Shown one piece after another: positions 1 to 36,449 of a stretch of DNA of 64,000 bases (positions are counted from its first letter, which is position 1; every line of letters begins with the position of its first letter). The stretch comes from Candidatus Altarchaeales archaeon (GTDB lineage Archaea; Altiarchaeota; Altiarchaeia; IMC4; SCGC-AAA252-I15), in the NCBI GenBank assembly GCA_014727915.1, contig WJMO01000007.1, positions 33,773 through 97,772 of the forward strand. Reading direction: 5' to 3'. Under the pieces are notes generated by a model. That model saw nothing but the letters and a program-made list of their open reading frames with translations, ran no database searches and was not told the DNA's origin. The position numbers and the translations under genes are program-made.

Positions 1-366
1 GTTGCGCTCCAGGTACTTCACCCTCTTGTTCACGATGCTCTTAGGGTAGCCGAGCATGTAAACGAAGAACACGCCGGATACGACAACGCCTATCGCCGGG
101 CCGAACTCCGGGTTTGCAGCCCCCCCGGACACGAGTATGAAGGAGAGTATGCCGCCCAATCCTATGAGGATGAAAGTGGACATGAAGAAGCAGACCGCCA
201 GGTACTCACGGGTTGTTATGTCATACTGGTCCCTGACGCCGGACTGATCGATGGCATCACGCATGAAAGGGAATAGATGGGTTAATATGGCCCCTACACC
301 TATGAACAGGCGTGAGCCCCCTCTCACAAACTTTGACTCAAGGACAGGTATCTTGGCCTCAGTCAT
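1..366 (-). CDS. Type II/IV secretion system F-domain (TadC/FlaJ/ArlJ-like) membrane protein, C-terminus truncated by window edge
   Basis: Minus-strand ORF starting at 366 reads MTEAKIPVLESKFVRGGSRLFIGVGAILTHLFPFMRDAIDQSGVRDQYD...YLAVCFFMSTFILIGLGGILSFIL; directly downstream of the FlaI-like ATPase. Confidence 0.75.
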   Translation of the reverse strand, partial: MTEAKIPVLESKFVRGGSRLFIGVGAILTHLFPFMRDAIDQSGVRDQYDITTREYLAVCFFMSTFILIGLGGILSFILVSGGAANPEFGPAIGVVVSGVFFVYMLGYPKSIVNKRVKYLERN

Positions 367-400
367 CAAATAGAATTAGTAATAGGTATTAAAGAGGGTG

Positions 401-1966
401 TCACGCGCCCTCCTCCTCTTCCCTATCTCCGAGCAGCGCCTCAGGACCCTCGTCGGACAGCACGACTTTGACCACTGTCTTACGGTCGATGTAGTAGCGG
501 TTGAGTATCCTCCCTACTTCGTCGACCTTGCGTATATCGTGCTTGACCATCCAGTTGAGTATGTTCTTCTTGAGGTTGATGTCCTCCACGACCTCGGCCC
601 TCGTCAAACCCGTGTGCCGGTATAACTCGGTGAACAACCTCATGGGCTCCACGTTGGGGACTATCTCGTCCTCCCGCGCATCCCACCGGTATATGATGTT
701 AGGCTTGTACCGCACTTCCCCGGACCTCCGCTTCTCCTCGTCCATCAGGAACTCCCCGACCTCGAATATGCGCCTTATGTTACGCCTCCGGTCCCGGAAC
801 ATCACGACGTTGAGGTGAACCGCCTCCAACATGCTGTGGGGCACCTCTATCGGGGGGTTGGTTATCCTCGTTATGGTCTGCTCGCAGGTGTCCGCGTGTA
901 TCGTGCAGTATACCGAGTGCCCTGTGTGCATCGCCTCGAACAGCACCTCAGCCTCCCGCTTCTTACGTATCTCGCCCATGACTATCCGGTCCGGCCGCAT
1001 CCTAAGAGAGTTAACCAGCAGGTCCAGCATGCTGACCTCGCCCTTCCCCTCGGGGTTGGGTTCCCGGGTCGTGAGGGGACACCAGTAGAGGTACTCTGGG
1101 AGCTGCAGCTCCCTGGTGTCCTCGATGCTGATTATGCGGTGGTTGGGCGGCATGAAGGGCATGCAGATGTTCAGGAAGCTCGTCTTCCCCGACCCTGTCC
1201 CTCCGCTGACGACTATGTTCATCTCGTATTGTATCATCAGCCAGATGAGAGCCAGCACCTCGGGGGTGGCGGTACCCGTCTTTATGAAGTCGGGGGCGGT
1301 CCACGGGTCCCTCGCGAACTTACGGATGGTTATCGTATTCCCCTTGGTCGCTATGGGCGTCAGGATGGCGTTGGCACGGTCTTTGCTCACGAGATGGGCG
1401 TCCAATAGGGGGCTGAGGGTGGTTATCTCCCGGCCGACCCGCCTGCCGATGGTGTTGGCATAGTTTTGGATGCGCATCTCGTTCTGTGGTGTGATGTTCG
1501 ACTTGAGCCATCCGAACTTCTTGTGGTATACTCTTATGGGCTCTGACGCGGAGTTTATTACTATCTCCTCCAGGTTCGGGTCGTTCAGGAAGAACTCTAT
1601 CTCGTCTAGGCCGAGTAGCTCGTGCAGCATGCTCAGCACGAAGTGGGTCTTCATCTCCGGGTCCAATCCGGGAAGCTCCTCGTCCAGTATAACCCCGGCT
1701 TTCTGCTCGAACTCCCCCTTCAACTGGCCCAGCAGCTTGGGGTCGAGTATCTCGCTGGTGCTCATCTCTACGCCGGCTATCAGGCGGTCTTTTATGTCGT
1801 CCAACAGGGCCATCGTAGCGACGTCCACCTCGGGAAGTATGAGCTTGTAGTAGGGTACGAAGTCCCTCATGATTATCTGAACGTGCGTTTCAACGCCTTC
1901 AGACTGTATCGTGTAGGAGTCCAGTACTTCGCCGTCAGCGGCCTTCTCACTTTTTTCCTTTGCCAT
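401..1966 (-). CDS. Type II/IV secretion ATPase (FlaI/ArlI, TadA, GspE/VirB11 family)
   Basis: Walker A GGTGSGKTSFLN, IISIEDTRELQLP, RPDRIVMGEIRKKREAEVLFEAMHTGHS, typical of archaeal T4P/archaellum ATPases. Confidence 0.93.
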   Translation of the reverse strand: MAKEKSEKAADGEVLDSYTIQSEGVETHVQIIMRDFVPYYKLILPEVDVATMALLDDIKDRLIAGVEMSTSEILDPKLLGQLKGEFEQKAGVILDEELPGLDPEMKTHFVLSMLHELLGLDEIEFFLNDPNLEEIVINSASEPIRVYHKKFGWLKSNITPQNEMRIQNYANTIGRRVGREITTLSPLLDAHLVSKDRANAILTPIATKGNTITIRKFARDPWTAPDFIKTGTATPEVLALIWLMIQYEMNIVVSGGTGSGKTSFLNICMPFMPPNHRIISIEDTRELQLPEYLYWCPLTTREPNPEGKGEVSMLDLLVNSLRMRPDRIVMGEIRKKREAEVLFEAMHTGHSVYCTIHADTCEQTITRITNPPIEVPHSMLEAVHLNVVMFRDRRRNIRRIFEVGEFLMDEEKRRSGEVRYKPNIIYRWDAREDEIVPNVEPMRLFTELYRHTGLTRAEVVEDINLKKNILNWMVKHDIRKVDEVGRILNRYYIDRKTVVKVVLSDEGPEALLGDREEEEGA

Positions 1967-3968
1967 CCGAGCCCTCCTTGGTAGACTTATCAGAGTGTAT
2001 GCTTATTATCTCAGGTTCGCCGATGGTTGGGTACCTGAGCTCCAGCAGGTTGTGCTCTTCCAGTATCATGGCCCAGGCCTCTATCTGGGTCTTGCTGACC
2101 TTCATCTTCTTCGCCAAGGCCTCATTTATCTTCAGCCTCCCCTTGGACTCCACCATCTCATAGAGCAGGTCTATGTTCGTGTGTATCTTCTTGCCCTCCT
2201 CCACACGCTTGTTGAAGCCCTTGCCGTCCTTGCCCAATGTTATCTTCGGCGCATCCCTGAGACGCCTTATCTCGTCCTTCCGCTTCTCCTTCGCCAAAAT
2301 GTCTCCCGCCGATGATATGGGAGATGATCCGCCACCAGACCGCTGCATCTTCAGCTCTTCGAGCCTCGCGGACTTTCTCTCATCGACCTGCTTCTCGCCT
2401 GTCCCGGCGCCGCCATCCTTTGTCTTCCGGAGCTCCGCGTATCTTTGGGCTTTGACAGGGTCAAGGTTGAGGTTTCTCGCGAAGTCTATCAGGTTGAATC
2501 CGCCACCTATCTTCTTGACCTTCCTCTTCTCCTTCAGCATCTTCCTGCGCTCTTCCTTCGCTGCGTCAGATCCTCCGGAGAAGACGCTCTTAAGACCGGA
2601 CATCACGGATTTCTTCTCCTTCTCGCCCGGTTCCGGCCTGAGCCGGGATTTGATCTTTATCTTCAGGGTTGAGAGTTTCACCGGCTTGGACAGCATGTAG
2701 TTTATGTTGGTGCGGACGGACTCGTTCAGGTCGTCCTCTGTCATCTCGAATATCTCGAGGTCTCCCTTGGTCCCGACGAACTCCGTCTGTATCTCGGAGA
2801 GGGCCTCATCACCGAATGTGACCTCCGCCTGGTCCATGTGCTCGAAAGATGCCGCTACTATCTCGCCCTTGTCTATGAGCAGGCCGGCGGTGTAGGCTTG
2901 GTCGTCGAGTTCCGCGTACAGCCTCATCGCGCCCACGAACTCGGTGGCAAGGCTCTTGCACACGTTCCTGAACTCCTCCTCCGTCTCCGGCATTACCTTG
3001 TCGCCGCTGACGACCATCTTGGACGAATCCCGGCCTTTATCCCCATCCTGCCGGGCAGGCTCTGGCTCTGACCCGCCCTGGGATCCGGTTCCTGAGACAG
3101 CGGATGTTTCGGGTTTGCCCACATCCCCTGCCGTGGGCTCTTCTGCAGGGGTTTCAGCTGTTGTTGTGGGGGGAGCTTCCTGGCCGGACTCCGAGGGCTC
3201 TTGAGACGTTGAAAACCCGGTTTCGGGAGTCGGGGTCCCGGACTCGACCGGGATTTCAGGTGTCGTAGGTGAGGGTTCGGGCTCTGAATGCTCGGGGGGT
3301 GAAGTGGGATGTTCGGTCGGGGTTGGAGATTCGGATGTTGAGGGTGATATTTCCTGCGAGGATGAACTGCTGGTTTCAGGTGTTTCAGCCGCAGGCTCCT
3401 GTTCGGACTCCGGTGTAGGCGAAGGCGCAGGCTCGGGGGTTGCGGCGGGTGTGGGCTGGGATTCGGGTTGGGGGATAGGTGGGGGTTCAGGCGGTGTTGT
3501 GTCTGGGGCGGACTGGACAGGCTCGGTTGCGGGGATTGGCTCTGCCGTGGCAGGGGTCTCCGGAGACGCAGCCGCTGTTCCCTGCGCTCCCCCAGAAGTG
3601 GGGGGTGTCTGCTGGCCATCAGATGGCGTTTCCGGCTCGCCTGAGGGGTCGGATGGAATGCCAGGGTCGGGGGAGGGAGTAGGTGCGTGCGGTTCCTTGT
3701 GTTCGTGGGATTTCAGCACCGCACCGCCGGATATGCTGTATTCGGTCTTGCCGAGGAACTTCTTCTTGACCTTGATTATGCCCTTATCCTTCAGGTAGGA
3801 GGTGTAGCGGCCCAGTTCCTTCTTGTCGATTCCCGTAGAGGATGAAAGCTCCTTGTCCGAGACCACACCCCGGCGTTTTATCTCGTCTAAGACGCGTTTA
3901 AGGCGTAATGCCCCCTGTTTCTTCCGTTCTTCAACGCCCCCGTGAAGCCGGTTCTTAACGTCGGACAT
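1947..3968 (-). CDS. Protein with N- and C-terminal winged-helix-like segments joined by a long Pro/Glu/Ser/Thr-rich linker
   Basis: Start chosen at internal Met (MSDVKNRLHGG) so the CDS does not overlap the upstream gene; N-term RVLDEIKRRGVVSDKELSSSTGIDKKELGRYTSYLKDKGIIKV; C-term LLYEMVESKGRLKINEALAKKMKVSKTQIEAWAMILEEHNLLELRY; ~200-aa low-complexity centre. Confidence 0.8.
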   Translation of the reverse strand: MSDVKNRLHGGVEERKKQGALRLKRVLDEIKRRGVVSDKELSSSTGIDKKELGRYTSYLKDKGIIKVKKKFLGKTEYSISGGAVLKSHEHKEPHAPTPSPDPGIPSDPSGEPETPSDGQQTPPTSGGAQGTAAASPETPATAEPIPATEPVQSAPDTTPPEPPPIPQPESQPTPAATPEPAPSPTPESEQEPAAETPETSSSSSQEISPSTSESPTPTEHPTSPPEHSEPEPSPTTPEIPVESGTPTPETGFSTSQEPSESGQEAPPTTTAETPAEEPTAGDVGKPETSAVSGTGSQGGSEPEPARQDGDKGRDSSKMVVSGDKVMPETEEEFRNVCKSLATEFVGAMRLYAELDDQAYTAGLLIDKGEIVAASFEHMDQAEVTFGDEALSEIQTEFVGTKGDLEIFEMTEDDLNESVRTNINYMLSKPVKLSTLKIKIKSRLRPEPGEKEKKSVMSGLKSVFSGGSDAAKEERRKMLKEKRKVKKIGGGFNLIDFARNLNLDPVKAQRYAELRKTKDGGAGTGEKQVDERKSARLEELKMQRSGGGSSPISSAGDILAKEKRKDEIRRLRDAPKITLGKDGKGFNKRVEEGKKIHTNIDLLYEMVESKGRLKINEALAKKMKVSKTQIEAWAMILEEHNLLELRYPTIGEPEIISIHSDKSTKEGSDGKGKK

Positions 3969-4018
3969 AATCCACCAATATACATTTACCCCCAGTAGAT
4001 TAAAATTAAAAGGGGGGT

Positions 4019-6613
4019 TCAGGAGCATGTGACGTTGAAGTCGTCCACGTAGAAGCCGTACTGGGTGAAGATGTCATTGTTCGAATCCAGCCTGAACCGA
4101 ACCCAAAGGCTGCCGCCGGCGTAGGAGCTCAGGTCATAGGAGTGCTGGGTCCAGACGTCCTCCCTCCAGCTGCCGCTCATCAGCTCGTCCCAGCTGTTTC
4201 CGTCAGATGAAGCCTCGACATAAACCTCATCACCGGCGCCCAGGACAACCCAGTACTTGTCCATGAAGTAGAGTGTGACAGGCCCTGCGACACCTGACAG
4301 GTCGATCTCTGGGCTCTCCAGCCACTCGTTGGCGTTCTTGTTGTAGTCGTGGCTTAGGTCAGTCGCCCAGCAGCTGCTCCCAGAGTATGCATTGCCCCAC
4401 CAGGGGTCGCCAAGCTCCCACTCGTCCTGGGGGCCTCCGTGTGTCCAAAGGCCTTCCCCGGATTCCATGTCGTCGAAGAAGCCGCAAACGGAAGGCGGGG
4501 AAGTCGTGGAAGTTGTTGAGGAGGTCGTTGTCGTGGAGGTGGTGGTCGGCCCGGAAATGCATGCTGGATTGCCCGCGTCCAGGTCCGCCCGGAAGGTGTA
4601 GGATCCGTTGTATCCGAAGCGTGGAGCGTCAACGTCCAATGCGATTATGTATGTTTCGCCCCCGATTACACAGTAGGATTCAAGGTTGACAGGCTCCATG
4701 TTCAACCTCACCTCAGGAGATGACGTGCACATGCCGTCGAGGGAGTAGTTGTAGATTATTATGTCTGTCCGGTCGTCGCCTGTCACGTTGCTGGTTCCCG
4801 TGAACGTCAGGTCTAGCAGCCCGTCAGAGGAGGGAGTGAACTGGTAGAAGTGCCATTCGCTGGTGTTATACCCGTAGTAGTCGCATGTGACCTGGTTACC
4901 GTCGGTTAGCCCCGGGGGTAGGGGCGAGTCACAGGTGGTGCAGAAGTCGAGGTCGTCGTAGTCGCAGTCGTGTATCTCGCCGCAGCCTGTGAAGTATATG
5001 AGGCAGTCGTAGTCGAGCCAGTCGGGCTGTCCGTCCAGGTCGTCGTCGGCGCCGTCCACACAGACCTCAGTGGAGCCGGGGCAGCCGGTGACGTTCACGC
5101 AGACCGTGTCCACGTCTAATACCTCGGCGTGGGCATCGTCCAAACGCATCACAAATTCGTCGGATGGGCAGACACCTTTCACGGCGCAGCCTTCGACCCC
5201 CTTCCAGTAGAGGTAGTCCACCCAGGTGGCGTTTTCGGTCACTGTTATCCCATGGTAGTCCAGGTAGAATGGGTCGACCAGCGTCTCCAACCCTATGTCG
5301 GAGGTGTTGAAGAAGTGCATGCTCTGTGTGGCGTACTTGTCTGAGAGGTTGTATCGGCCGTCCAAGCGGTCGAAGAAGGAAGGTCCGTCGAAGCCGCCGA
5401 ATGCGCTGGCGTTGCTGACCTGGTAGCATGTGGTGTTGATGGAGTTCGAGGCGATCCCTATAAGAACCTGGTGTATGTCGCAGTCATCGTTGTTCAGTAT
5501 CTGGATGCACGCCCCCTCCGAGAACTCGCCCTCGTCGCACCCTGCCGGCCGGTCCCATCCTGGGACCTGCGGCGGTTCGGTGTCCATGTCCCCCGTCGCA
5601 GTGATCCAGGGTATGGTGAGGTTGCATTTCTTTGCGAAGCTCTCGGGGGCGTTCTTCTGGTAGTTGATTATGCCCGCGAACGAGTTCGGGTGGCTTGAGT
5701 TGAAGCAAACATGCTCCTCGTACTGGTTGCATCCTCCGAAGCCCTGGTCCAACACGAGTATCAAACCGCTGATGACATCAGGGTCCTCGTTGATGCAGTA
5801 GTCAGCTAAGCTCCCATAGTCCGCCTTTATGGTGGAGTGGAAGACCACGTCACCTGTCGCCTGGCCGACTCCGGGGGACTCGGTCATTATGCTGCAGCCG
5901 GCTATCATCTCGTTGTCGATGAATGTGGTGCAGTTGTTGATGTACTTTATCACGAACGAGTTCGTGTTCAGGGGGAATAGGGGATCCTCCAGTCCGATGA
6001 TGGACGTTGGGGAAGCCACGAGGACACTGTCCCCGACGTAGTAGCATGTGCCCGCCTCGTCGTATACGTTGAAGGACGTGTTGGCGATGGCCATGAAAGT
6101 CCACGGGTCCCTGGGGATCAGGTGGAGCGTGTTCAGGGATATGTTCACGACGAAGTGCATGTCCCTCCCCTGACTTTCTATGCGGTCAAGCCACTGTGAG
6201 AGGGTGTGGTTTACCATGTAGCTGATGTTCTGGTCGTGTAGTGTGCCGCACATTATGAGCTCGGTCAGCGCGGCCTCGCTGCCATTCACGCCCATCCGGA
6301 ACCTGTCACAGTTCACATGGCATGAGGGAGTGCATTTGAAGGAGTAATCCTGGAGGTCGTCGCCGGACAGAACAACATCGTCTATGGCGTAGATGGTCGC
6401 TCGCCTTCCGAATATGACCAGGGCCCGCTCCAGGTCTCCGCGGACGTCCTCGACGAAGTAGTGGAGCTCATCGCATCTTATCTTGGATATGGTGTCGTCT
6501 GTCTTGGTCTTGGAGACCGTCGCATAGTATGACACGAAGAGTATCAGGGGTATGACTAGCAGGACGACGGCTATCGTGAAGAATAGTCCTCGCTTTTCCT
6601 TTTTCATAGCCAC
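4019..6613 (-). CDS. Giant pilin-like surface protein with PPC-like and C-terminal MAM/immune-inhibitor-A-like module
   Basis: KKEKRGLFFTIAVVLLVIPLILFVSYY N-terminal helix; many Cys; TTTSTTTTSSTTSTTS linker; C-term FDDMESGEGLWTHGGPQDEWELGDP...WVRFRLDSNNDIFTQYGFYVDDFNV. Confidence 0.82.
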   Translation of the reverse strand: MAMKKEKRGLFFTIAVVLLVIPLILFVSYYATVSKTKTDDTISKIRCDELHYFVEDVRGDLERALVIFGRRATIYAIDDVVLSGDDLQDYSFKCTPSCHVNCDRFRMGVNGSEAALTELIMCGTLHDQNISYMVNHTLSQWLDRIESQGRDMHFVVNISLNTLHLIPRDPWTFMAIANTSFNVYDEAGTCYYVGDSVLVASPTSIIGLEDPLFPLNTNSFVIKYINNCTTFIDNEMIAGCSIMTESPGVGQATGDVVFHSTIKADYGSLADYCINEDPDVISGLILVLDQGFGGCNQYEEHVCFNSSHPNSFAGIINYQKNAPESFAKKCNLTIPWITATGDMDTEPPQVPGWDRPAGCDEGEFSEGACIQILNNDDCDIHQVLIGIASNSINTTCYQVSNASAFGGFDGPSFFDRLDGRYNLSDKYATQSMHFFNTSDIGLETLVDPFYLDYHGITVTENATWVDYLYWKGVEGCAVKGVCPSDEFVMRLDDAHAEVLDVDTVCVNVTGCPGSTEVCVDGADDDLDGQPDWLDYDCLIYFTGCGEIHDCDYDDLDFCTTCDSPLPPGLTDGNQVTCDYYGYNTSEWHFYQFTPSSDGLLDLTFTGTSNVTGDDRTDIIIYNYSLDGMCTSSPEVRLNMEPVNLESYCVIGGETYIIALDVDAPRFGYNGSYTFRADLDAGNPACISGPTTTSTTTTSSTTSTTSPPSVCGFFDDMESGEGLWTHGGPQDEWELGDPWWGNAYSGSSCWATDLSHDYNKNANEWLESPEIDLSGVAGPVTLYFMDKYWVVLGAGDEVYVEASSDGNSWDELMSGSWREDVWTQHSYDLSSYAGGSLWVRFRLDSNNDIFTQYGFYVDDFNVTCS

Positions 6614-9600
6614 ACCATCAACTTGAATTTCGCAGGCCCCCAGAGGGACTGGACTCCGCCCGCGCTCGATATCTCGAACTCTATCATGTTGGGGTCGAAC
6701 AGCAGGTCGACTTCGCCGTCGTCGTCCAGGTCCAGCTGGTCCATCAGCCTGAAAACGGCATCGTTGACCGCATCCCCCGCAACATATGATTTGTTCATAG
6801 GACTATTAAGTCCAGGGGTGTAAAAGCAGTTAGACGAGCCCCCGTATGCCGTCGGTATGGGAGCGTTGAAGCTCGTCCCGTCCTCGAACTCTATCTCCCA
6901 GTTGCAGCCCAGGTTGTCGTCGAAGACCCCACCGTATCCTACCATGCTCTGCAGGCGGATAGTGTATATTGCCCTGTCGTCAGGCGAGCAACCGGTACGG
7001 TTGTCCTCGGAATCCCCGGTTTCGATCGTGAGCGTCGTGTTGCCGCCGATCAGTATCTTCTCAGGGGGTATTTGAACTATGTAGGGGTCTCCCAGTAGGG
7101 CGTAGTCGGAGCCCCAGTCTGAAAGCTGATAGACTATCTCCCCCCCTCCAGAGTCCACGTCCAGGTAGTCCGTCCAGTGCTCTCCAGAATAGGAGGTCAC
7201 CCTGGCAGATGAGACGACGACATCAGGCGGTATCTCGACCACCCCCCTGCAGTTGAGGGTGTCGTCGAAGCGGTCGGTGGACTGTGTGATCGAGACCGTC
7301 CCATAGTCGGACAGGTTCAAGGGCATGTAGTCGATTTCAAGGTATGAGTCGGGGAAAAGCTGGGACTCCCTGAGCTCTCCGCCGTAGAATACTGTCTGGC
7401 TCTCCAGGCTGGACTCGTAGATGTCCTTTGAGAAGTTGAGGTAGCAGTCAACCGCGGCAGTGGAGTTGCCTCCGGGGCAGAAAGCTCCGTCGCCGCATTC
7501 CGCAGAGTGTATGAGGGTCAGCTCGGAATTTAAGCAGCCAAGTGTCGCAGGCCCGAACCCGATGGTGCGGACTTCGGCACCCAAGTCGTTTTGGGCGCGT
7601 TGGGAAGCGCATATCGCATCATAGACTGCGGGAAGGCAGTAGGTGTTCTCGCAGTCGCCCGTGGTGGCCCCGCAGCTCCTGTCGCCTGTCGTCTGAGTGC
7701 ACGACCCCGTGCAGTCACCGCATCCGCTGGTCTCAGGCGGTACGAGGACCTCCAGGTCGTCTATCATTATGTGCTCGCTGTCGGTTGACGTGGAACCCCA
7801 GAATTGAAGCACGAGGTCGTTTAAGGAGTCGGGTATGTCGGCTTCCGCGACCGCCCAGGTGAGCTGCCCGCTTCCTATGTCGGGCGACAGGACCTCCACT
7901 ATGGGCTCCCATCCGCTGCCGTCCCAGTAGTACAGTCCCATCTCGTCAGAGTCCTCCGTGTCCTCGTAGCTGTACCAGACCCTGACCTTGACGTCGTTGT
8001 GGGCTGAGATGTCGATGGGAGTCCTGTTCAAAGCCACATACTCGGGGTTGAAACCGCCCCATATCCCAAAGTAGGACGATCCGCTGTGAGGGCCGTATGA
8101 GCCTGCGCTCGCCTTCCCATAGAGGTAGCCTCCTGGCGCGGTTGTGCGCTCACCGTCCACCGTCCACTCGGCTATCTCGGAGTCGGCTTCGAAGTCTGTG
8201 GTGAACAGCACGGTTCGGTTCTGGTAGTTGCAGCTGCCGCAGTTATAGCCTGTTATGCCGTCGGTCATCACGATGATGTAGTTGCTCCTAGTCGGGCTCC
8301 AAACGTCGTCGAGTAGGTTGTAGGCCTGGTTTATAGCGCAGCAGACGCAGGTTCCTCCCGAGGGGTCGTTGCTGTATCCCATAACATGGGAGACCATGCT
8401 TTCGTTGTCCTGGGGGTCGCTGAATCTGTAGGAAGAGCCGCCGTCTGCTTCGGCCTCGGTGTCAAATGAGACCAGGGCCATCCGGTTCCCGGTGTGGTTC
8501 ATGACCGTGTTTATGAAGTCCCTCGCCAGGCATTTGGCGAGGCTTATGCGCTTGGTGTCGTCGTCGAACAGGTCCGGGCTGTCGCACCCCCGCTCCTCCC
8601 CTTCAGAGCCGGTGTTGTCGCCTATCCGGAAGTCCATGCTCCCGGAGACGTCGGTTATCAGCACCACGTCCGCGTTGCCTGAAGCGACCACCTCGGACAT
8701 GTTACCCGTGCCCATCCGGAGCGGCACGTTGTTCTGGTCCAGGTCCGGGTGGTATATCAAACCTATGGGGGCGCCCTGGATCTCAGCGTCCGAGAGGGTT
8801 ATGAACTGTTCGCTCTCGTTCCCGTCGGCTGAGAAGACGGTGGTGCCGCCTATGTTCAGGTATGTGGAGTAGTTGCTCATGTAATGGAGGTAGAGGCCGA
8901 TGGACTCAACGCGTCCTGGCACGTAGAAGGAGTCGTAGAGGTTTATTATGCCGTTGATTCCCGGGAAGTGATACCATGTGGTCCGGGCGACCTCGTCAGT
9001 GTCCATCTCCGAGGTGTTGTATAGTATGTGTATGAACCCTCCGCCGATGTAGTGGTCTTCTATGGTTCCCTCAGTGAACATTAGGGTGAAGTTGTTGGGA
9101 GCCCCCAGGATGATGTTGGACAGGTCCGCTTCCGCGACGCACCCGTTGCCCGGGCCGGCTGGCAATCCCTCCCGTAGGTTGGCGCTCATGTTGCCTCCGA
9201 TGGGCTCGAACGCGCCCGCGAAGTTCTCGTTTATGTAGAGGTTAAAGTCCGAGGGGGAGTTAAGCTCGAAGCAGCAGCGTTGTATGGTCGCATCAGAGGG
9301 GAGACCCCGCACGAACACTGTTATGTTGCCCTGGCCGGTGTAGCCGCCGAAGTACGTGTAGGATGACGTCTCCTTCTCCCTTATGTTCGCGAGGAACGCC
9401 CTCGCGACATTGCCCCTTGTGGGCAGCCCCCGGCCGTAGCCGACGAGCAGCCGGGTGGAGTGGGTCAACGTAGTTGCCTGGCCAGGGGGTATGCGGGTGT
9501 TGTTGGCTACCATCTCGCCGTCTATCGTCAGCGCCCATCCGACATTCGTGGGGAGCAGCTGGTTTATGTGGTGGGCTGACAGGTTGGATGCGTTCAGCCA

Positions 9601-9840
9601 GTGGGGGCTGGTCTGGTTCCCGTTCGCTGCAGCCCACTCCTCCCCTATCTGGTCCAAGACGCCTATCTTGTTCAGCACGTCCATGGTGTCTTCGGAGACG
9701 TAGTGAAGACGTTTGACCGAGATGTCGGATGCGGATGACCCGCTATATCGCAAGCCCATCAAAGCCGTCAATATGACCATGACCACCGTCAACGCGACGA
9801 CCGCATCCAACAATATCGCATATCCCCTCTTCATCGCCAC
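6604..9840 (-). CDS. Giant pilin-like von Willebrand factor A domain protein
   Basis: N-term MKRGYAILLDAVVALTVVMVILTALMGL; MIDAS-like VVLITDVSGSMD; ALVSFDTEA; IIVMTDG; EVRTIGFGP; overlaps both neighbouring genes by 10 bp. Confidence 0.88.
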   Translation of the reverse strand: MAMKRGYAILLDAVVALTVVMVILTALMGLRYSGSSASDISVKRLHYVSEDTMDVLNKIGVLDQIGEEWAAANGNQTSPHWLNASNLSAHHINQLLPTNVGWALTIDGEMVANNTRIPPGQATTLTHSTRLLVGYGRGLPTRGNVARAFLANIREKETSSYTYFGGYTGQGNITVFVRGLPSDATIQRCCFELNSPSDFNLYINENFAGAFEPIGGNMSANLREGLPAGPGNGCVAEADLSNIILGAPNNFTLMFTEGTIEDHYIGGGFIHILYNTSEMDTDEVARTTWYHFPGINGIINLYDSFYVPGRVESIGLYLHYMSNYSTYLNIGGTTVFSADGNESEQFITLSDAEIQGAPIGLIYHPDLDQNNVPLRMGTGNMSEVVASGNADVVLITDVSGSMDFRIGDNTGSEGEERGCDSPDLFDDDTKRISLAKCLARDFINTVMNHTGNRMALVSFDTEAEADGGSSYRFSDPQDNESMVSHVMGYSNDPSGGTCVCCAINQAYNLLDDVWSPTRSNYIIVMTDGITGYNCGSCNYQNRTVLFTTDFEADSEIAEWTVDGERTTAPGGYLYGKASAGSYGPHSGSSYFGIWGGFNPEYVALNRTPIDISAHNDVKVRVWYSYEDTEDSDEMGLYYWDGSGWEPIVEVLSPDIGSGQLTWAVAEADIPDSLNDLVLQFWGSTSTDSEHIMIDDLEVLVPPETSGCGDCTGSCTQTTGDRSCGATTGDCENTYCLPAVYDAICASQRAQNDLGAEVRTIGFGPATLGCLNSELTLIHSAECGDGAFCPGGNSTAAVDCYLNFSKDIYESSLESQTVFYGGELRESQLFPDSYLEIDYMPLNLSDYGTVSITQSTDRFDDTLNCRGVVEIPPDVVVSSARVTSYSGEHWTDYLDVDSGGGEIVYQLSDWGSDYALLGDPYIVQIPPEKILIGGNTTLTIETGDSEDNRTGCSPDDRAIYTIRLQSMVGYGGVFDDNLGCNWEIEFEDGTSFNAPIPTAYGGSSNCFYTPGLNSPMNKSYVAGDAVNDAVFRLMDQLDLDDDGEVDLLFDPNMIEFEISSAGGVQSLWGPAKFKLMVWL

Positions 9841-10385
9841 ACCGTAAAGTAGAGCCTCGTTATCTCACCGTCCAAGACCGCAGTCCTGGTTATCGTCATC
9901 GCCTCCGTGTCGTTGGACGGAACCCTCCCAACTCCCATAGCCTCGCCGTCGACTTCAACCACGGACCCGTTAAGGTATGTAAGGTTGAAGTAAAAATCGT
10001 ATCCTCCGATCCCGAGTAGGTATAGGTTGCATTCGTAGTTGCTGCCCCCCGGCAGGCTGCACAGGTCAGTCTGCCCATGGTCCATGAAGTGCTTGAACTC
10101 CAGCAGCTTGTAGGGGACTAGGACGCGGCTCTTGTTGGACAGGCCCAGCGAGGTCACATTGTCCAGAACCCAGTTCTCAGGGGTTCCGGGCGTGCGTATC
10201 AGCTTCTCAGCAGCTTCAACGCCGAATTCTGCCATGGTCCTCTGGTCTTCTGCCTGGAAGAGGTCCCGGGTGGATAGGTCCCACAGGTGCAGTATCAGCA
10301 TCAGACCCGCCATGAAGAGCATGAACGCTATGAGGAACTCTCCGCTGAAAACCTGGCCTTTGGATTGCGCCTTCATTTTGGTCAT
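9831..10385 (-). CDS. Class-III-signal pilin-like protein
   Basis: SKGQVFSGEFLIAFMLFMAGLMLILHLWDL N-terminal pilin-like helix; overlaps neighbouring genes. Confidence 0.75.
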   Translation of the reverse strand: MTKMKAQSKGQVFSGEFLIAFMLFMAGLMLILHLWDLSTRDLFQAEDQRTMAEFGVEAAEKLIRTPGTPENWVLDNVTSLGLSNKSRVLVPYKLLEFKHFMDHGQTDLCSLPGGSNYECNLYLLGIGGYDFYFNLTYLNGSVVEVDGEAMGVGRVPSNDTEAMTITRTAVLDGEITRLYFTVWR

Positions 10386-11080
10386 ATGGTCTTGGTTACG
10401 TTGTTGTCGGTTTCTATGCTCTCGTTCACCGTGTCCAGGTAGTCTACGGTGACCGTTACGAACTCTCCGAACGTCGAGTTGAAGCTCAATGTGAGCGAAT
10501 CATATGCTTTAAGGGAGGATGTGCTGACGTTCAAGGTGGTGTCGTTCGTCAGCAGGGAGGTTTTGAAGTATGGTGAGTCGACGTGGGCGTCGTTGACTAT
10601 CTCCACCCAGGTGGTGTTGTCCACTATCACAAGGGAGCCGGGCACCACCTTCAGGTTGGGCAAGTGACATGTGACCTCAATGCCGGCTTTGTTGTTCTTT
10701 ATCCGGTTCCTCGTGTTCAACCCCTTGCTGAGGCAGTGGACTGATATGTTGGAGTCCATGACACGGGTCGTCCACGTCCTCTCACCCCACATCATCTCCA
10801 GCACGTTGCCCCGTATCACGATATCATATTCATAGTCGCCGTGGAGCCTGTTGGGCAGTGAGAAGTAGGAGTAGTATCCTGGACCCTGCTGGCCTATCAT
10901 GTTCACGTTGTCCTTCACGCTGGTGGCGACACGCCGAGCGTCGAGGAGCGTCTTTATCCTGCTGCTCTCGGCGGTCTTCTCCATGGCGATCAGGACTATC
11001 ACGCAGAATATCATGAGCAGGACCGATATGCCGATGATCAACTCCAAGCCTGTCTGCCCCCTTAGTCCGCGGCGTTCCAT
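10382..11080 (-). CDS. Class-III-signal pilin-like protein with CARDB-like C-terminus
   Basis: Internal start MERRGLRGQTGLELIIGISVLLMIFCVIVLIAME preferred over 11143 because it avoids overlap with the divergent gene; C-term LKAYDSLTLSFNSTFGEFVTVTVDYLDTVNESIETDNNVTKTI. Confidence 0.78.
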   Translation of the reverse strand: MERRGLRGQTGLELIIGISVLLMIFCVIVLIAMEKTAESSRIKTLLDARRVATSVKDNVNMIGQQGPGYYSYFSLPNRLHGDYEYDIVIRGNVLEMMWGERTWTTRVMDSNISVHCLSKGLNTRNRIKNNKAGIEVTCHLPNLKVVPGSLVIVDNTTWVEIVNDAHVDSPYFKTSLLTNDTTLNVSTSSLKAYDSLTLSFNSTFGEFVTVTVDYLDTVNESIETDNNVTKTI

Positions 11081-11115
11081 CCCACTATAAATATGGTCAC
11101 ACATATCTTTAATTA

Positions 11116-14100
11116 ATGAGGAAACTGGCTTTTGCACTCGCATTTCTAGCTTTAACCAATGTCGTGTGGTCCCAGAGCTGGGAGACGTTCAGGGGGGACT
11201 ACCTGCGCACTGGTGAGTCCACCGCAGAGTCGTCCTTCAGCTTCGACGACTTCAACATACTATGGCATTTCCAGACCGGGGAGGCGGTCAGGGGCCCTCC
11301 GAGCGTGGCCGACATAGACGGGGATGGGGTCCGCGACATAGTATTCGGTTCGGACGACGACCACCTCTATGTGCTGGACGACCGTGGCAGGCTGAAGTGG
11401 GAGTATGAGACAGGCGGCAACGTCCGCTCAGCGCCCACATTGGTTGACGCTGACGGTGACGGCAGCGTTGACGTGTTGTTCGGTTCGGATGACGGGTACC
11501 TTTACATGCTGGACAACGAAGGCAATCTGACGTGGAAGTATGAGACAGGGGGGATGGTCCGTAGTTCCCCCCTAGTCGAGGACCTTGGCGGCACGACCGT
11601 CAAGGAGATCGTCTTCGGTTCGGGAGACAGCAGGGTATACTGCCTGAACCCGTCCGGTGAGAAGCTGTGGGAGTACAAGACTGCAGAGTCTGTGTACTCG
11701 TCTCCTGCCCTCTATGACATGGACAATGACGGGGAGGACGAGATCGTGTTCGGGTCGGACGATAACATAGTATACATAATCAAGCACCCCCCGCATAAGG
11801 TCTGGACCTACCAGACATCGGGGGACATAAGCTCTACGCCCGCGATAGACAGGTCGGGGAATGTCGTGGCGGGGTCGGGGGATAAGAGGCTTTACAGGCT
11901 CCACATAACCAGCCGTGGAGTTTCCGAGTCCAGGAGGGTTTGGAGCGGGACTGAATGGACGACCGAGAGGATAAGCATAACGGGGCTGGTGCAGATGTGG
12001 AACCACACGCTAGGGGGGAAGGTATCGACTTCGCCGGCGTTGGGCAACATTTACAACACGGACGGCACATATGGGGCTTTCGTCGGCGGCGACGACGGTG
12101 TGCTGTACATGGTCTACATAAACGGCAGCAGAAGCAGAATATACAGCGTCTCAAAGCCCATAGAATCCTCCCCCGCTGTGGGGGACCTGAACGGCGACAA
12201 CATAACAGACATCGTCTTCGGCACAAACGACAATAAAGTTTTCATAATAAATCATCCGGGTAGGAGCGTGTTCACATTCGAGACTGGCGGCCCGGTGAGG
12301 TCCTCCCCCGCGCTGGCAGACCTTGTGGGCGACGGCACATTGGAGGTTATGGTAGGCTCCGACGACGGTAAGCTATACATATTCGGCGACTCCAGGAGCA
12401 TGAGCGTGCACGTCGGCTACACATACTACCAGACCGCGCTGAAATACTATGGGGTGGGGGACATAGAAAACGCGAAAAGGTTCATTGAAGGGGCGAAGAC
12501 CAGGTTCAACCGGGCTGACTACACTGAGGGCATAAGCGAATGCAACAGCTTGCTGGGCAGGATAGAGGGGGACAGCCACTATAACAAAGCCCAGGACCTG
12601 TACTTGGACGGGGACTTGAGGGGAGCTCGCGAGGAGGTCGAGACCGCGGCGGAGGTTTACTTCAGAGCCGGGGACGAATATGGGTTTGAGCGTGCGGACC
12701 GGCTTTTCATAAGGATAGAGGCCGACACATACTACGAGGAAGCCCAGTACTACTACAATCTTGGACTGTACCAGAACGCTTCAGAGTACATCGAGGCTGC
12801 CCGGAGATACTATGCGAGCATAAACTACACAGAGGGGGTTGAGATGTCAACGCAGATGTACAACGTATCACAGACTCATGGGAAAGCGGACATATACTTC
12901 GAGGACGGGATAACATCCCGGAAGGAGGGGAAATACGACGTTGCGGAGATGTACTTCGGGCTTGCGAGGCTGTCATACGAGCTTGCCGGGGACATGGAGA
13001 ACGCCAACATAACAAGCCATTACATAAACACCGTGAAAGGCGACCAGTACTTCCAGAACGCCATGGAATACCTTAACGCAGGGGACTATGCCAGGGCTGT
13101 CGAAGAGGCTGAAGTGGCGATGCGGTACTTCCGCAACGGAAGCGGGGAGGACACCAACAAGGTTGACGTGCTCTATGAGAGGGTGAAATGGCTCGCTCAA
13201 GCAAATGACCTTTATGAGAAGGCGGAGAAGCATTATACTGCGGCAGACTTCGAGGCAGCCATCGAATACGCGGACAAGGCCATGGTCTTATACAACACCT
13301 CGGGAGACTTGGAAGGCTACACAAGATCTGAGAGGCTATACCAGCGCGCTTCCAGGGCGGCGGGTTCGGGAGGGGGCGGGATATTCCCTGAGGACCTTCC
13401 GCTGGTTCCTGCCCTCATGATCGTGTCATCTCTGGCTGCAATAGGGTACATGCTGTCAAAGAGGAGGAAGCCGCGCAGGTGGTTCATAGGAGGGTGGCGC
13501 AGGTACGGGCGATTCATAGCAGCATACACTATTGTCCCGGCAGGCAGGAGCATAAGCCTAATACCCCCGAAGAGGCTTGCGGAGAAGCTCAGCAGGAGAA
13601 GCGTCCTATTGGAGGGAGGAGCAGGGGATCGTGCGAAGGTGGACGTCGCAGGCGCAAAGCCGACGAAGAGGCCATCACCTATCGGGGCGCAAACACAAGA
13701 ACATGGCAAACAGACAACACCAGCCATACCGCAAACGCCGAGACCGCCATTACCCCCAAGCAGGAGAAGGCCGCCCTCCACCAAAGAGAGGATAAGACAC
13801 AAACTCAGAAAGATACTAGGAATAAAACCCAAACACCCCAGACCACCACAGCCAAGAACACCGCCAAAGAGGGGAATAACAGCACCTCAACATCAGATGA
13901 GACCATCAGGCCCTCCAACCCACAGGAGAAGGCCGCCCTCCACCAAAGAGAGGATAAGACACAAACTCAGAAAGATACTAGGAATAAAACCCAAACACCC
14001 CAGACCACCACAGCCAAGAACACCGCCAAAGCCTGCAGGAATTAAACAGCCAGCCGGGCATCCTGGTGTCAAACCCCAGGCCAAGGCCAGCAAGCCCAAG

Positions 14101-14502
14101 AGGATTCTTCCGCCCAAGCCGACAGATTCTCTTCCCAAGTCAGAGCCTGAAAACGCCTTCAAGCCTCCCCGAACATCGGATGCGGCAGGAGAAGAAAAGG
14201 AGGGGAAAAAGGCGAGGGCAGGCAGGGAGGCCAGGATAGGGTTGGAACATAGGATACAGCTCATGGACAGGGAGAAGACAGAAGAACCCCCGGCGGAAGA
14301 GGAGGAGACCGAAGAGAAGCACAAGGAGAGAAAAGATGACGCGGGGAAGAGCCTGTTCACATCAGAAGACGACAGGTTCGCTGTGATGCTCTGGAACATC
14401 AGGGACACCCTCCGGAACCTGCTGGGAGGAGCCAAGAAGGAGAAGAGGCGCAAACACAGGGTAGTGCTGCTGCCAAGAGACAAGAAAGACAGAGTAGACT
14501 AA
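11116..14502 (+). CDS. Secreted/membrane PQQ-like beta-propeller plus TPR protein with TM segment and basic Pro/Lys-rich tail
   Basis: Signal peptide; repeats such as SPALYDMDNDGEDEIVFGSDDNIVYI and SSPAVGDLNGDNITDIVFGTNDNKVFI; TPR-like YNLGLYQNASEYIEAARRYYASINY; TM LPLVPALMIVSSLAAIGYML; RRRPPSTKERIRHKLRKILGIKPK tail. Confidence 0.85.
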   Translation: MRKLAFALAFLALTNVVWSQSWETFRGDYLRTGESTAESSFSFDDFNILWHFQTGEAVRGPPSVADIDGDGVRDIVFGSDDDHLYVLDDRGRLKWEYETGGNVRSAPTLVDADGDGSVDVLFGSDDGYLYMLDNEGNLTWKYETGGMVRSSPLVEDLGGTTVKEIVFGSGDSRVYCLNPSGEKLWEYKTAESVYSSPALYDMDNDGEDEIVFGSDDNIVYIIKHPPHKVWTYQTSGDISSTPAIDRSGNVVAGSGDKRLYRLHITSRGVSESRRVWSGTEWTTERISITGLVQMWNHTLGGKVSTSPALGNIYNTDGTYGAFVGGDDGVLYMVYINGSRSRIYSVSKPIESSPAVGDLNGDNITDIVFGTNDNKVFIINHPGRSVFTFETGGPVRSSPALADLVGDGTLEVMVGSDDGKLYIFGDSRSMSVHVGYTYYQTALKYYGVGDIENAKRFIEGAKTRFNRADYTEGISECNSLLGRIEGDSHYNKAQDLYLDGDLRGAREEVETAAEVYFRAGDEYGFERADRLFIRIEADTYYEEAQYYYNLGLYQNASEYIEAARRYYASINYTEGVEMSTQMYNVSQTHGKADIYFEDGITSRKEGKYDVAEMYFGLARLSYELAGDMENANITSHYINTVKGDQYFQNAMEYLNAGDYARAVEEAEVAMRYFRNGSGEDTNKVDVLYERVKWLAQANDLYEKAEKHYTAADFEAAIEYADKAMVLYNTSGDLEGYTRSERLYQRASRAAGSGGGGIFPEDLPLVPALMIVSSLAAIGYMLSKRRKPRRWFIGGWRRYGRFIAAYTIVPAGRSISLIPPKRLAEKLSRRSVLLEGGAGDRAKVDVAGAKPTKRPSPIGAQTQEHGKQTTPAIPQTPRPPLPPSRRRPPSTKERIRHKLRKILGIKPKHPRPPQPRTPPKRGITAPQHQMRPSGPPTHRRRPPSTKERIRHKLRKILGIKPKHPRPPQPRTPPKPAGIKQPAGHPGVKPQAKASKPKRILPPKPTDSLPKSEPENAFKPPRTSDAAGEEKEGKKARAGREARIGLEHRIQLMDREKTEEPPAEEEETEEKHKERKDDAGKSLFTSEDDRFAVMLWNIRDTLRNLLGGAKKEKRRKHRVVLLPRDKKDRVD
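13761..13869 (+). repeat. Copy 1 of a 109-bp perfect direct repeat inside the CDS 11116..14502
   Basis: caggagaaggccgccctcc...aagaacaccgccaaag is identical to 13923..14031; offset 162 bp (54 codons). Confidence 0.95.
13923..14031 (+). repeat. Copy 2 of the 109-bp perfect direct repeat
   Basis: Identical to 13761..13869 by direct reading. Confidence 0.95.
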
Positions 14503-35840: not shown

Positions 35841-36449
35841 ATGAAGAAACTAGGAAATAAAGGTTTGATGGGAATCGGGACGCTGATAATATTTATTGCG
35901 GTGATCCTGGTTGCCGCCGTAGCCGCTGCCGTTCTGGTTTCGACCTCTGGCAGCCTACAGCAGAGGTCGTTAACGACCGGATCCCAGGCGGAAGAAGGTG
36001 TCTCAACGGGCGCTGAGGCCGTTTCAGTCATGGCGACTGACGGTTCCACAGGCCACGACCTCGAGCACTTCGAGGTTCTTTTGAGGCTCCAGGCTGGAAG
36101 CGAAGCACTGAACTTGAACAACACGGTTGTCCTCGTGGACACTGCGACCACATCGCAGAGCCTTGACTACGGCGGTGCCGTGGCCGATGGTACGGAGTCG
36201 AGCAACACTTACTCGTACGCCGTTACGTACGTGAAGCAGGGCCCCGACTACGAGCAGGACTACCTGAGCCGTGGTGACGTCATAAAGATGAAGTTCAGGT
36301 GCGACGACTGCACGTCAGGTGACACCGGCGGCATCGGCGAGAACAAGAAGGTGCGGATAAAGATTATCCCACGTGTCGGAACGACCTCGATCATCGAGTT
36401 CACGACACCGGACGTTGTCACCGACCAGAGAATAACGCTCTGGCCGTAG
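35841..36449 (+). CDS. Archaellin (archaeal flagellin family)
   Basis: KLGNKGLMGIGTLIIFIAVILVAAVAAAVLVSTSGSLQQRSLTTGSQAEEGVSTGAEAVSVMATDG; C-term RVGTTSIIEFTTPDVVTDQRITLWP. Confidence 0.88.
   Translation: MKKLGNKGLMGIGTLIIFIAVILVAAVAAAVLVSTSGSLQQRSLTTGSQAEEGVSTGAEAVSVMATDGSTGHDLEHFEVLLRLQAGSEALNLNNTVVLVDTATTSQSLDYGGAVADGTESSNTYSYAVTYVKQGPDYEQDYLSRGDVIKMKFRCDDCTSGDTGGIGENKKVRIKIIPRVGTTSIIEFTTPDVVTDQRITLWP

Follow-up and report, generated by a model that had tools for sequence, protein, structure and literature searches.

How proteins of 1078 and 864 amino acids (aa) come to begin like pilins is the question raised by one end of a 64,000 nucleotide stretch of archaeal DNA, referred to here as the window (contig WJMO01000007.1, positions 33,773 to 97,772 of the forward strand). 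The window lies in contig C4 of a Candidatus Altiarchaeota genome (1.81 Mb, 13 contigs), and its positions 1-11143 hold, on the minus strand, a type IV pilus operon. The genes are transcribed in the order pilin A, B, C and D, a helix-turn-helix (HTH)/DUF2226 protein, an assembly ATPase and the membrane protein TadC_a, followed by TadC_b beyond the window. A TadC/FlaJ-like protein, a FlaI/TadA ATPase, a winged HTH/linker protein and four pilin-like proteins on one strand, two of them of 864 and 1078 aa, had been listed in an earlier sequence-only reading; all are present as described, and the two largest are D and C. The operon probably encodes a type IV filament machine with four minor pilins, in which C and D would be modular minor pilins of a tip complex and would display a VWA and a MAM-like domain that serve in adhesion or mechanosensing.

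The N-termini were assessed with a strict FlaFind-like rule for class III signals, which required lysine or arginine followed by glycine, alanine or serine, no basic residue for seven residues, and positions +8 to +20 mostly hydrophobic and free of polar or charged residues. All four window pilins passed. Pilin A (10382-11143, 253 aa) reads RG/QTGLE at its predicted cleavage site, pilin B (9831-10385, 184 aa) KG/QVFSGE, pilin C (6604-9840, 1078 aa) RG/YAILLDAVVAL and pilin D (4019-6613, 864 aa) RG/LFFTIAVVLL. Within the families, 79/92 A, 41/47 B, 43/46 C and 26/36 D proteins passed, compared with 36/766 (4.7%) of the other open reading frames of the same loci, and unlabelled pilins or archaellins account for many of these 36. 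Lysine or arginine at -2 and glycine, alanine or serine at -1 occur in nearly all members of the pilin families. Because four of four pass against this background, and because the gene order is kept across phyla, the pilin-like N-termini are not a product of chance; those of the giants are of class III type and not ordinary Sec signals.

An acid code runs through the four families. The first acidic residue is Glu+5 in 85 of 99 A proteins, as in the window copy, and an acid at +6 in 49 of 54 B proteins, again as in the window; in family C it stands at +6 in 45 of 50 giants and in all 15 small forms (Asp+6 in the window), and all 46 D proteins, including the window copy, are free of acid from +1 to +8. 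In type IV filaments, a review describes a minor-pilin tip complex capped by a subunit without Glu5 (PMC10191384). Since known caps lack Glu5 and D has no acid, D carries the mark of a cap, and by this analogy it may be the tip-capping subunit. The acid code bears as well on an alternative, in which C and D are surface adhesins that merely share the operon, each held in the membrane by an uncleaved N-terminal helix and never polymerised. One N-terminal hydrophobic helix and very large ectodomains would suit such proteins, and the C-terminal module of C does occur on a protein with a Sec-type signal at the paralogous loci L009 and L109. However, a plain anchor needs neither the -2/-1 pair (K/R, G/A) nor the aspartate at +6, which C keeps in the giants and small forms counted above, and the order of C and D is fixed with A, B and the assembly ATPase; anchorage of this kind was considered quite unlikely.

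Pilin C consists of a pilin module (residues ~1-155), a beta-rich middle, a VWA domain interrupted by a beta-rich insert (~541-706), and a C-terminal module (~960-1078) that is common to small members of the family. The VWA domain scored 31.2 bits in Pfam (cut-off 27) over residues 392-528, and in the AlphaFold2 model it appears to resume at ~733-811, past the insert, which is poorly predicted. Residues D397, S399, S401, T497 and D527 fit a complete metal ion-dependent adhesion site (MIDAS; DxSxS, T, D); in 13 close relatives of C, D397, S399, S401 and D527 are invariant and T497 is nearly so. The model contains helices at 3-58 and strands at 101-150, with predicted local distance difference test (pLDDT) values mostly of 60-95. 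When a profile of 23 C proteins was compared with solved structures, the best match (E 7.7e-12) was the VWA minor pilin PilB of Streptococcus sanguinis. PilB (E 3.0e-7), SpaC and Mfa5 were also among the first Foldseek matches of the C model; it is mainly the VWA domain that underlies the match of C to PilB.

Giant C proteins range from 540 to 1861 aa, and C also occurs as pilins of 129-275 aa without a VWA domain. At L108, a locus of the same order, a 275 aa C without VWA comprises the N-terminal module (42% identity to C 1-157) joined to the C-terminal module. The window's own genome has a second pilus locus (L010:8453-17917), with the order A-A-B-129 aa-396 aa-..-ATPase-TadC; the 129 aa protein in the C position has a C-type N-terminus (MRRG/FVVSLDV) and the 396 aa protein a D-type one (RERG/YLFTALT). 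Woesearchaeal C proteins are of 135-259 aa; in profile comparison, 49 columns link them to the giants (probability 96.5) and 41 columns link small D to giant D (probability 91.3). In Woesearchaeota, some of the small C and D genes had been labelled B by the models or left unlabelled; small C was reassigned by N-terminal motif and length, and the small-C counts depend on this reassignment. A contig scan with a single C protein as query gave no matches.

Other arrangements of C were seen. At L133:4661-8721 the C frame is apparently broken (634 aa, overlapping a D frame) while the flanking pilus genes look intact, and tandem C-D-C-D duplications at L043, L044 and L046 give two different giant pairs in some relatives. 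At L009:5594-12071 and L109:6168-12630 the protein that carries the C-terminal module of C behind a Sec-type signal, in place of a pilin N-terminus, adjoins genes for D, ATPase, TadC, a beta-propeller protein and a protein of 314 aa with a MoxR-like look.

Pilin D was modelled by AlphaFold2 as a helix (5-83) and a three-stranded sheet (154-204), with pLDDT mostly 60-95 in this part, followed by a middle rich in cysteine and aspartate and a C-terminal MAM-like jelly roll (~757-864). The models of both giants thus begin with a long helix and continue into an antiparallel sheet. The C-terminal end of D matched the NCBIfam choice-of-anchor J family (31.0 bits, cut-off 30), and Foldseek matched the jelly roll to the MAM domain found in InhA2 and in meprin (best E 1.1e-5). 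VWA, MAM-like and PPC-like modules had been proposed for the giants from the letters alone; the first two are borne out by scores over the Pfam and NCBIfam cut-offs, and a PPC domain was found in D neither by Pfam nor by NCBIfam at E<=0.1. Weak matches to DUF7287/7288 are a lead only, and haloarchaeal DUF7288 was not found in this genome.

An alignment search with the ATPase yielded 80 named loci with an ortholog, 61 of them with enough flank for the cassette to be counted. The A-B-C-D cassette was present in 44 of these 61, with a giant C in 31 and a small C in 13, and no cassette was found within the fetched flank of the other 17. It stands near ATPase-TadC-TadC in Altiarchaeota, Woesearchaeota, Pacearchaeota and Nanohaloarchaea; the linkage to the ATPase and TadC core is kept in both Altiarchaeota and DPANN archaea. 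Several altiarchaeal contigs (L047, L050 and L059) have the complete order A-B-C-D-HTH/DUF2226-ATPase-TadC-TadC, with one extra small gene each in L047 and L050. The gene immediately upstream of the ATPase is an HTH/DUF2226 relative at 66 of 71 loci; downstream of the ATPase, both TadC genes are present at 54 of 62. In another archaeal family, known from complete genomes, the order is A-A-A-B-C-D, the ATPase is not alongside, and B is of 465-569, C of ~700 and D of 837-1116 aa. The D protein of one such locus (L198) contains DUF2341 (53.6 bits) and has homology to window D across the first ~226 residues (probability 98.9); its C protein is homologous to window C (probability 98.6).

Several observations weigh against C and D being modular minor pilins. 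Some relatives of C have no detectable MIDAS, and the homology of the small DPANN C and D proteins to the giants spans only ~40-50 residues, so that operon position is also needed for the link. Only about a third of the residues in the whole D model are confident, and the D helix, of ~79 residues, exceeds a typical pilin helix. Foldseek with the D model returned no pilin structure, the MAM-like end alone being matched, and the profile search of D against solved structures gave chance hits only, with no pilin among them. In some Altiarchaeota (L115, L124, L126, L127) this ATPase has no cassette next to it, and for at least one of the altiarchaeal genomes with lost linkage (G011), C was located elsewhere in the genome. 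Nevertheless, the proposal of the sequence-only reading, that VWA/MAM proteins are assembled directly as minor pilins of a surface pilus, is supported by the class III-type N-termini, the helix and sheet models, the conserved linkage and the small VWA-free C; from these features we infer their cleavage, presence in a filament and place at the tip, and a role that may be adhesion or sensing.

The large domains appear not always to sit on the same subunit. In DPANN archaea, 10 of 14 small-C loci (L129, L132, L135, L144, L146, L149, L151, L153, L157 and L170) encode a large A-type pilin, of 399-576 aa and in one case with an Ig-like domain, but only a single giant-C locus does so; where C is small, the large load appears to move to the A-type pilin. 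Giant DPANN cassettes are divergent from or downstream of the ATPase, whereas small ones are always upstream and co-directional. On an ATPase tree of 34 DPANN loci, built with FastTree and carrying local support only, there were at least four changes between the giant and small states (shuffled mean 11), and one of them crosses a fully supported branch (L129 versus L131/L137). These data provide a lead that whole tip cassettes may be replaced beside a motor that is kept. It is possible, though we put it forward tentatively, that a four-subunit tip complex with the acid code Glu5/acid6/acid6/none is ancestral in one large archaeal pilus branch, as a functional counterpart of GspH-I-J-K or TadE-F-G. 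C and D would then be docks for an exchangeable domain, be it VWA, DUF2341 or MAM-like, or an Ig-like one carried by an A pilin, and the exchange would at times replace the whole cassette next to an unchanged motor.

The rest of the machine was sought in the operon and in the genome. The assembly ATPase (401-1966, 521 aa) is of VirB11/FlaI/TadA type and is not the archaellum motor. Its assignment to archaellum FlaI was rejected (263.4 bits, NF058587 cut-off 550), as were assignments to TadA (163.2 bits, TIGR03819 cut-off 373.15) and to bindosome BasE (143.7 bits, cut-off 1000); the archaellum motor FlaI of this genome is a 550 aa ATPase at L010:5181-6833 (706 bits, cut-off 550). TadC_a, a TadC/FlaJ-type platform, has the first 123 of its 300 aa in the window (1-369; L007:8240-9142) and is followed by TadC_b (L007:7247-8236, 329 aa). 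One A24 prepilin peptidase match was found in the genome, at C3:331367-331759, with a GGGDVK motif. PilA-type major pilins gave nine matches in this genome, and 26 of the 80 named loci have such a gene within the fetched flanks.

The operon itself has no major pilin gene, and its ATPase matches the bindosome motor BasE (E 7.8e-42), as well as other motors. Both points would agree with a short envelope assembly or pseudopilus, comparable to the Sulfolobus bindosome or the type II secretion piston, in which the giants are the main subunits. That explanation is very unlikely given the BasE score, which lies below the cut-off, the domains of C and D, which are VWA and MAM-like and not substrate-binding folds, and the PilA-type genes just described. 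For a filament with a modular tip, the following course may be proposed. Sec would insert A, B, C and D into the membrane, the A24 peptidase encoded elsewhere in the genome would cut all four, and the ATPase and TadC pair would extract them. A, B, C and D would build a priming and tip complex capped by D, which has no acid for the N-terminus of an overlying subunit to pair with, and C would sit beside D. The VWA domain of C, with its MIDAS, and the jelly roll of D would thereby be exposed at the tip, where their ligand may be a partner cell, a surface or a matrix, or where they may report tension. PilA-type major pilins from genes elsewhere would make up the shaft. As minor pilins, C and D might instead decorate the shaft or sit at the base. 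The model of Makarova et al. (2016, PMC4858521) has the class III minor pilins of archaea close to the base, by analogy with archaellins; either position for C and D is, in our view, unlikely.

Neighbouring genes of the operon overlap from A to the ATPase. Overlaps of 4-10 bp had been noted, and this holds from A through HTH (A/B 4, B/C 10, C/D 10 and D/HTH 10 bp), while HTH and ATPase overlap by 20 bp; the B/C overlap becomes 4 bp if C starts at the ATG two codons past the GTG. For pilin A the likely start is 11080, the end given in the sequence-only reading and an internal ATG (MERRGLRGQTGLEL) of the frame that reaches 11143, and its C-terminus has a CARDB-like domain (22.9 bits, cut-off 22.7). 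A gene for an STT3/AglB oligosaccharyltransferase lies directly upstream of pilin A at L047:1525-4347, L048:3459-6911 and L056:787-3723, which suggests a dedicated glycosylation of these pilins. The HTH/DUF2226 protein (1947-4028, 693 aa) has an HTH, a linker rich in proline, glutamate and threonine, and DUF2226; among relatives the gene next to the ATPase encodes ~110 to 700 aa, and the window copy has the long low-complexity linker. Divergently, at 11116-14502 on the plus strand, a 1128 aa protein has a Sec-like signal, a PQQ/FG-GAP beta-propeller, TPR-like repeats, a membrane segment and a basic tail, and its relatives flank the pilus cassette at L042 and L058 and adjoin the paralogous locus at L009 and L109. 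A stand-alone archaellin gene (35841-36449, plus strand; PF01917, E 7.3e-26) has no motor gene nearby, FlaI being on another contig.

Many DPANN archaea rely on contact with a host cell, and Altiarchaeota form biofilms; a VWA domain displayed at the tip is consequently a candidate for attachment or contact sensing. The priming and capping of archaeal pili are poorly known, and a cassette with an acid-free pilin offers a concrete candidate for the tip complex and the part that makes cell contact. Domain grafting on minor pilins, so far described in bacteria, may occur on a large scale in archaea too, and the broader A-D pattern merits a proper study of its own. Archaeal VWA pilins, the A-D acid code and cassette switching were not found described in the literature covered, open-licence PubMed Central only, which is weak evidence that no report exists.

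VWA minor pilins are already known from S. sanguinis and from Tad pili, and exchangeable tips from Myxococcus, where the Kil tips form interchangeable sets (PMC12075869). Like C and D, PilB and PilC of S. sanguinis (PMC8179133, PMC9934059) join a class III pilin module to a large grafted domain, and PilB shares with C a VWA domain with MIDAS. They differ in belonging to bacterial type IVa pilus machinery, with a processed PilB of 454 aa, whereas here two giants stand in a four-pilin cassette, and C has further beta-rich parts and the shared C-terminal module. Raynaud et al. (2021), in their survey of modular pilins, deal with bacteria, and the word archaea is absent from the text. Of the features by which that survey recognizes modular pilins, C and D carry the class III signal and an extra non-pilus domain (VWA, MAM-like), the latter being absent from small C. 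Caulobacter CpaL/TadG, a VWA minor pilin of Tad pili, resembles C in having a pilin module and a VWA domain split by a beta-rich domain; its predicted place is the tip, together with two small minor pilins, and PilB, SpaC and Mfa5 are among its reported top structural matches, as for C (PMC12607857). Unlike CpaL/TadG, the 23 C members contained no Tad/TadG-like Pfam domain at E<=0.1.

Among archaea, conserved CpaF/TadC-type loci of Woesearchaeota, Pacearchaeota and Nanohaloarchaeota are thought to aid host contact (PMC11291902); the emphasis of that work is on coiled-coil sigma-1-like proteins and on FlaF/PilA, and neither 'VWA' nor 'pilin' occurs in its text. The Clade 1 type IV pili of Makarova et al. 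(2016) have, as here, an ATPase, two TadC proteins and several class III minor pilins. Passages of that census treat VWA proteins as regulators and give no account of the large proteins as acid-coded pilins. The window cassette differs from the DUF2341 systems of Clade 1 in having a D without DUF2341 and a C with VWA: Pfam found no DUF2341 in C and D (P0001, P0002), and no PilC/PilY1 C-terminal beta-propeller domain was found in them. Their N-terminal parts are nevertheless homologous to proteins of a DUF2341-bearing cassette, and the same Clade 1 account proposes two large DUF2341 proteins as PilY-like tip adhesins (PMC4858521). Two lines of evidence meet here, the sequence homology of D to DUF2341 proteins and the proposal in the literature that DUF2341 proteins are adhesins of the pilus tip.

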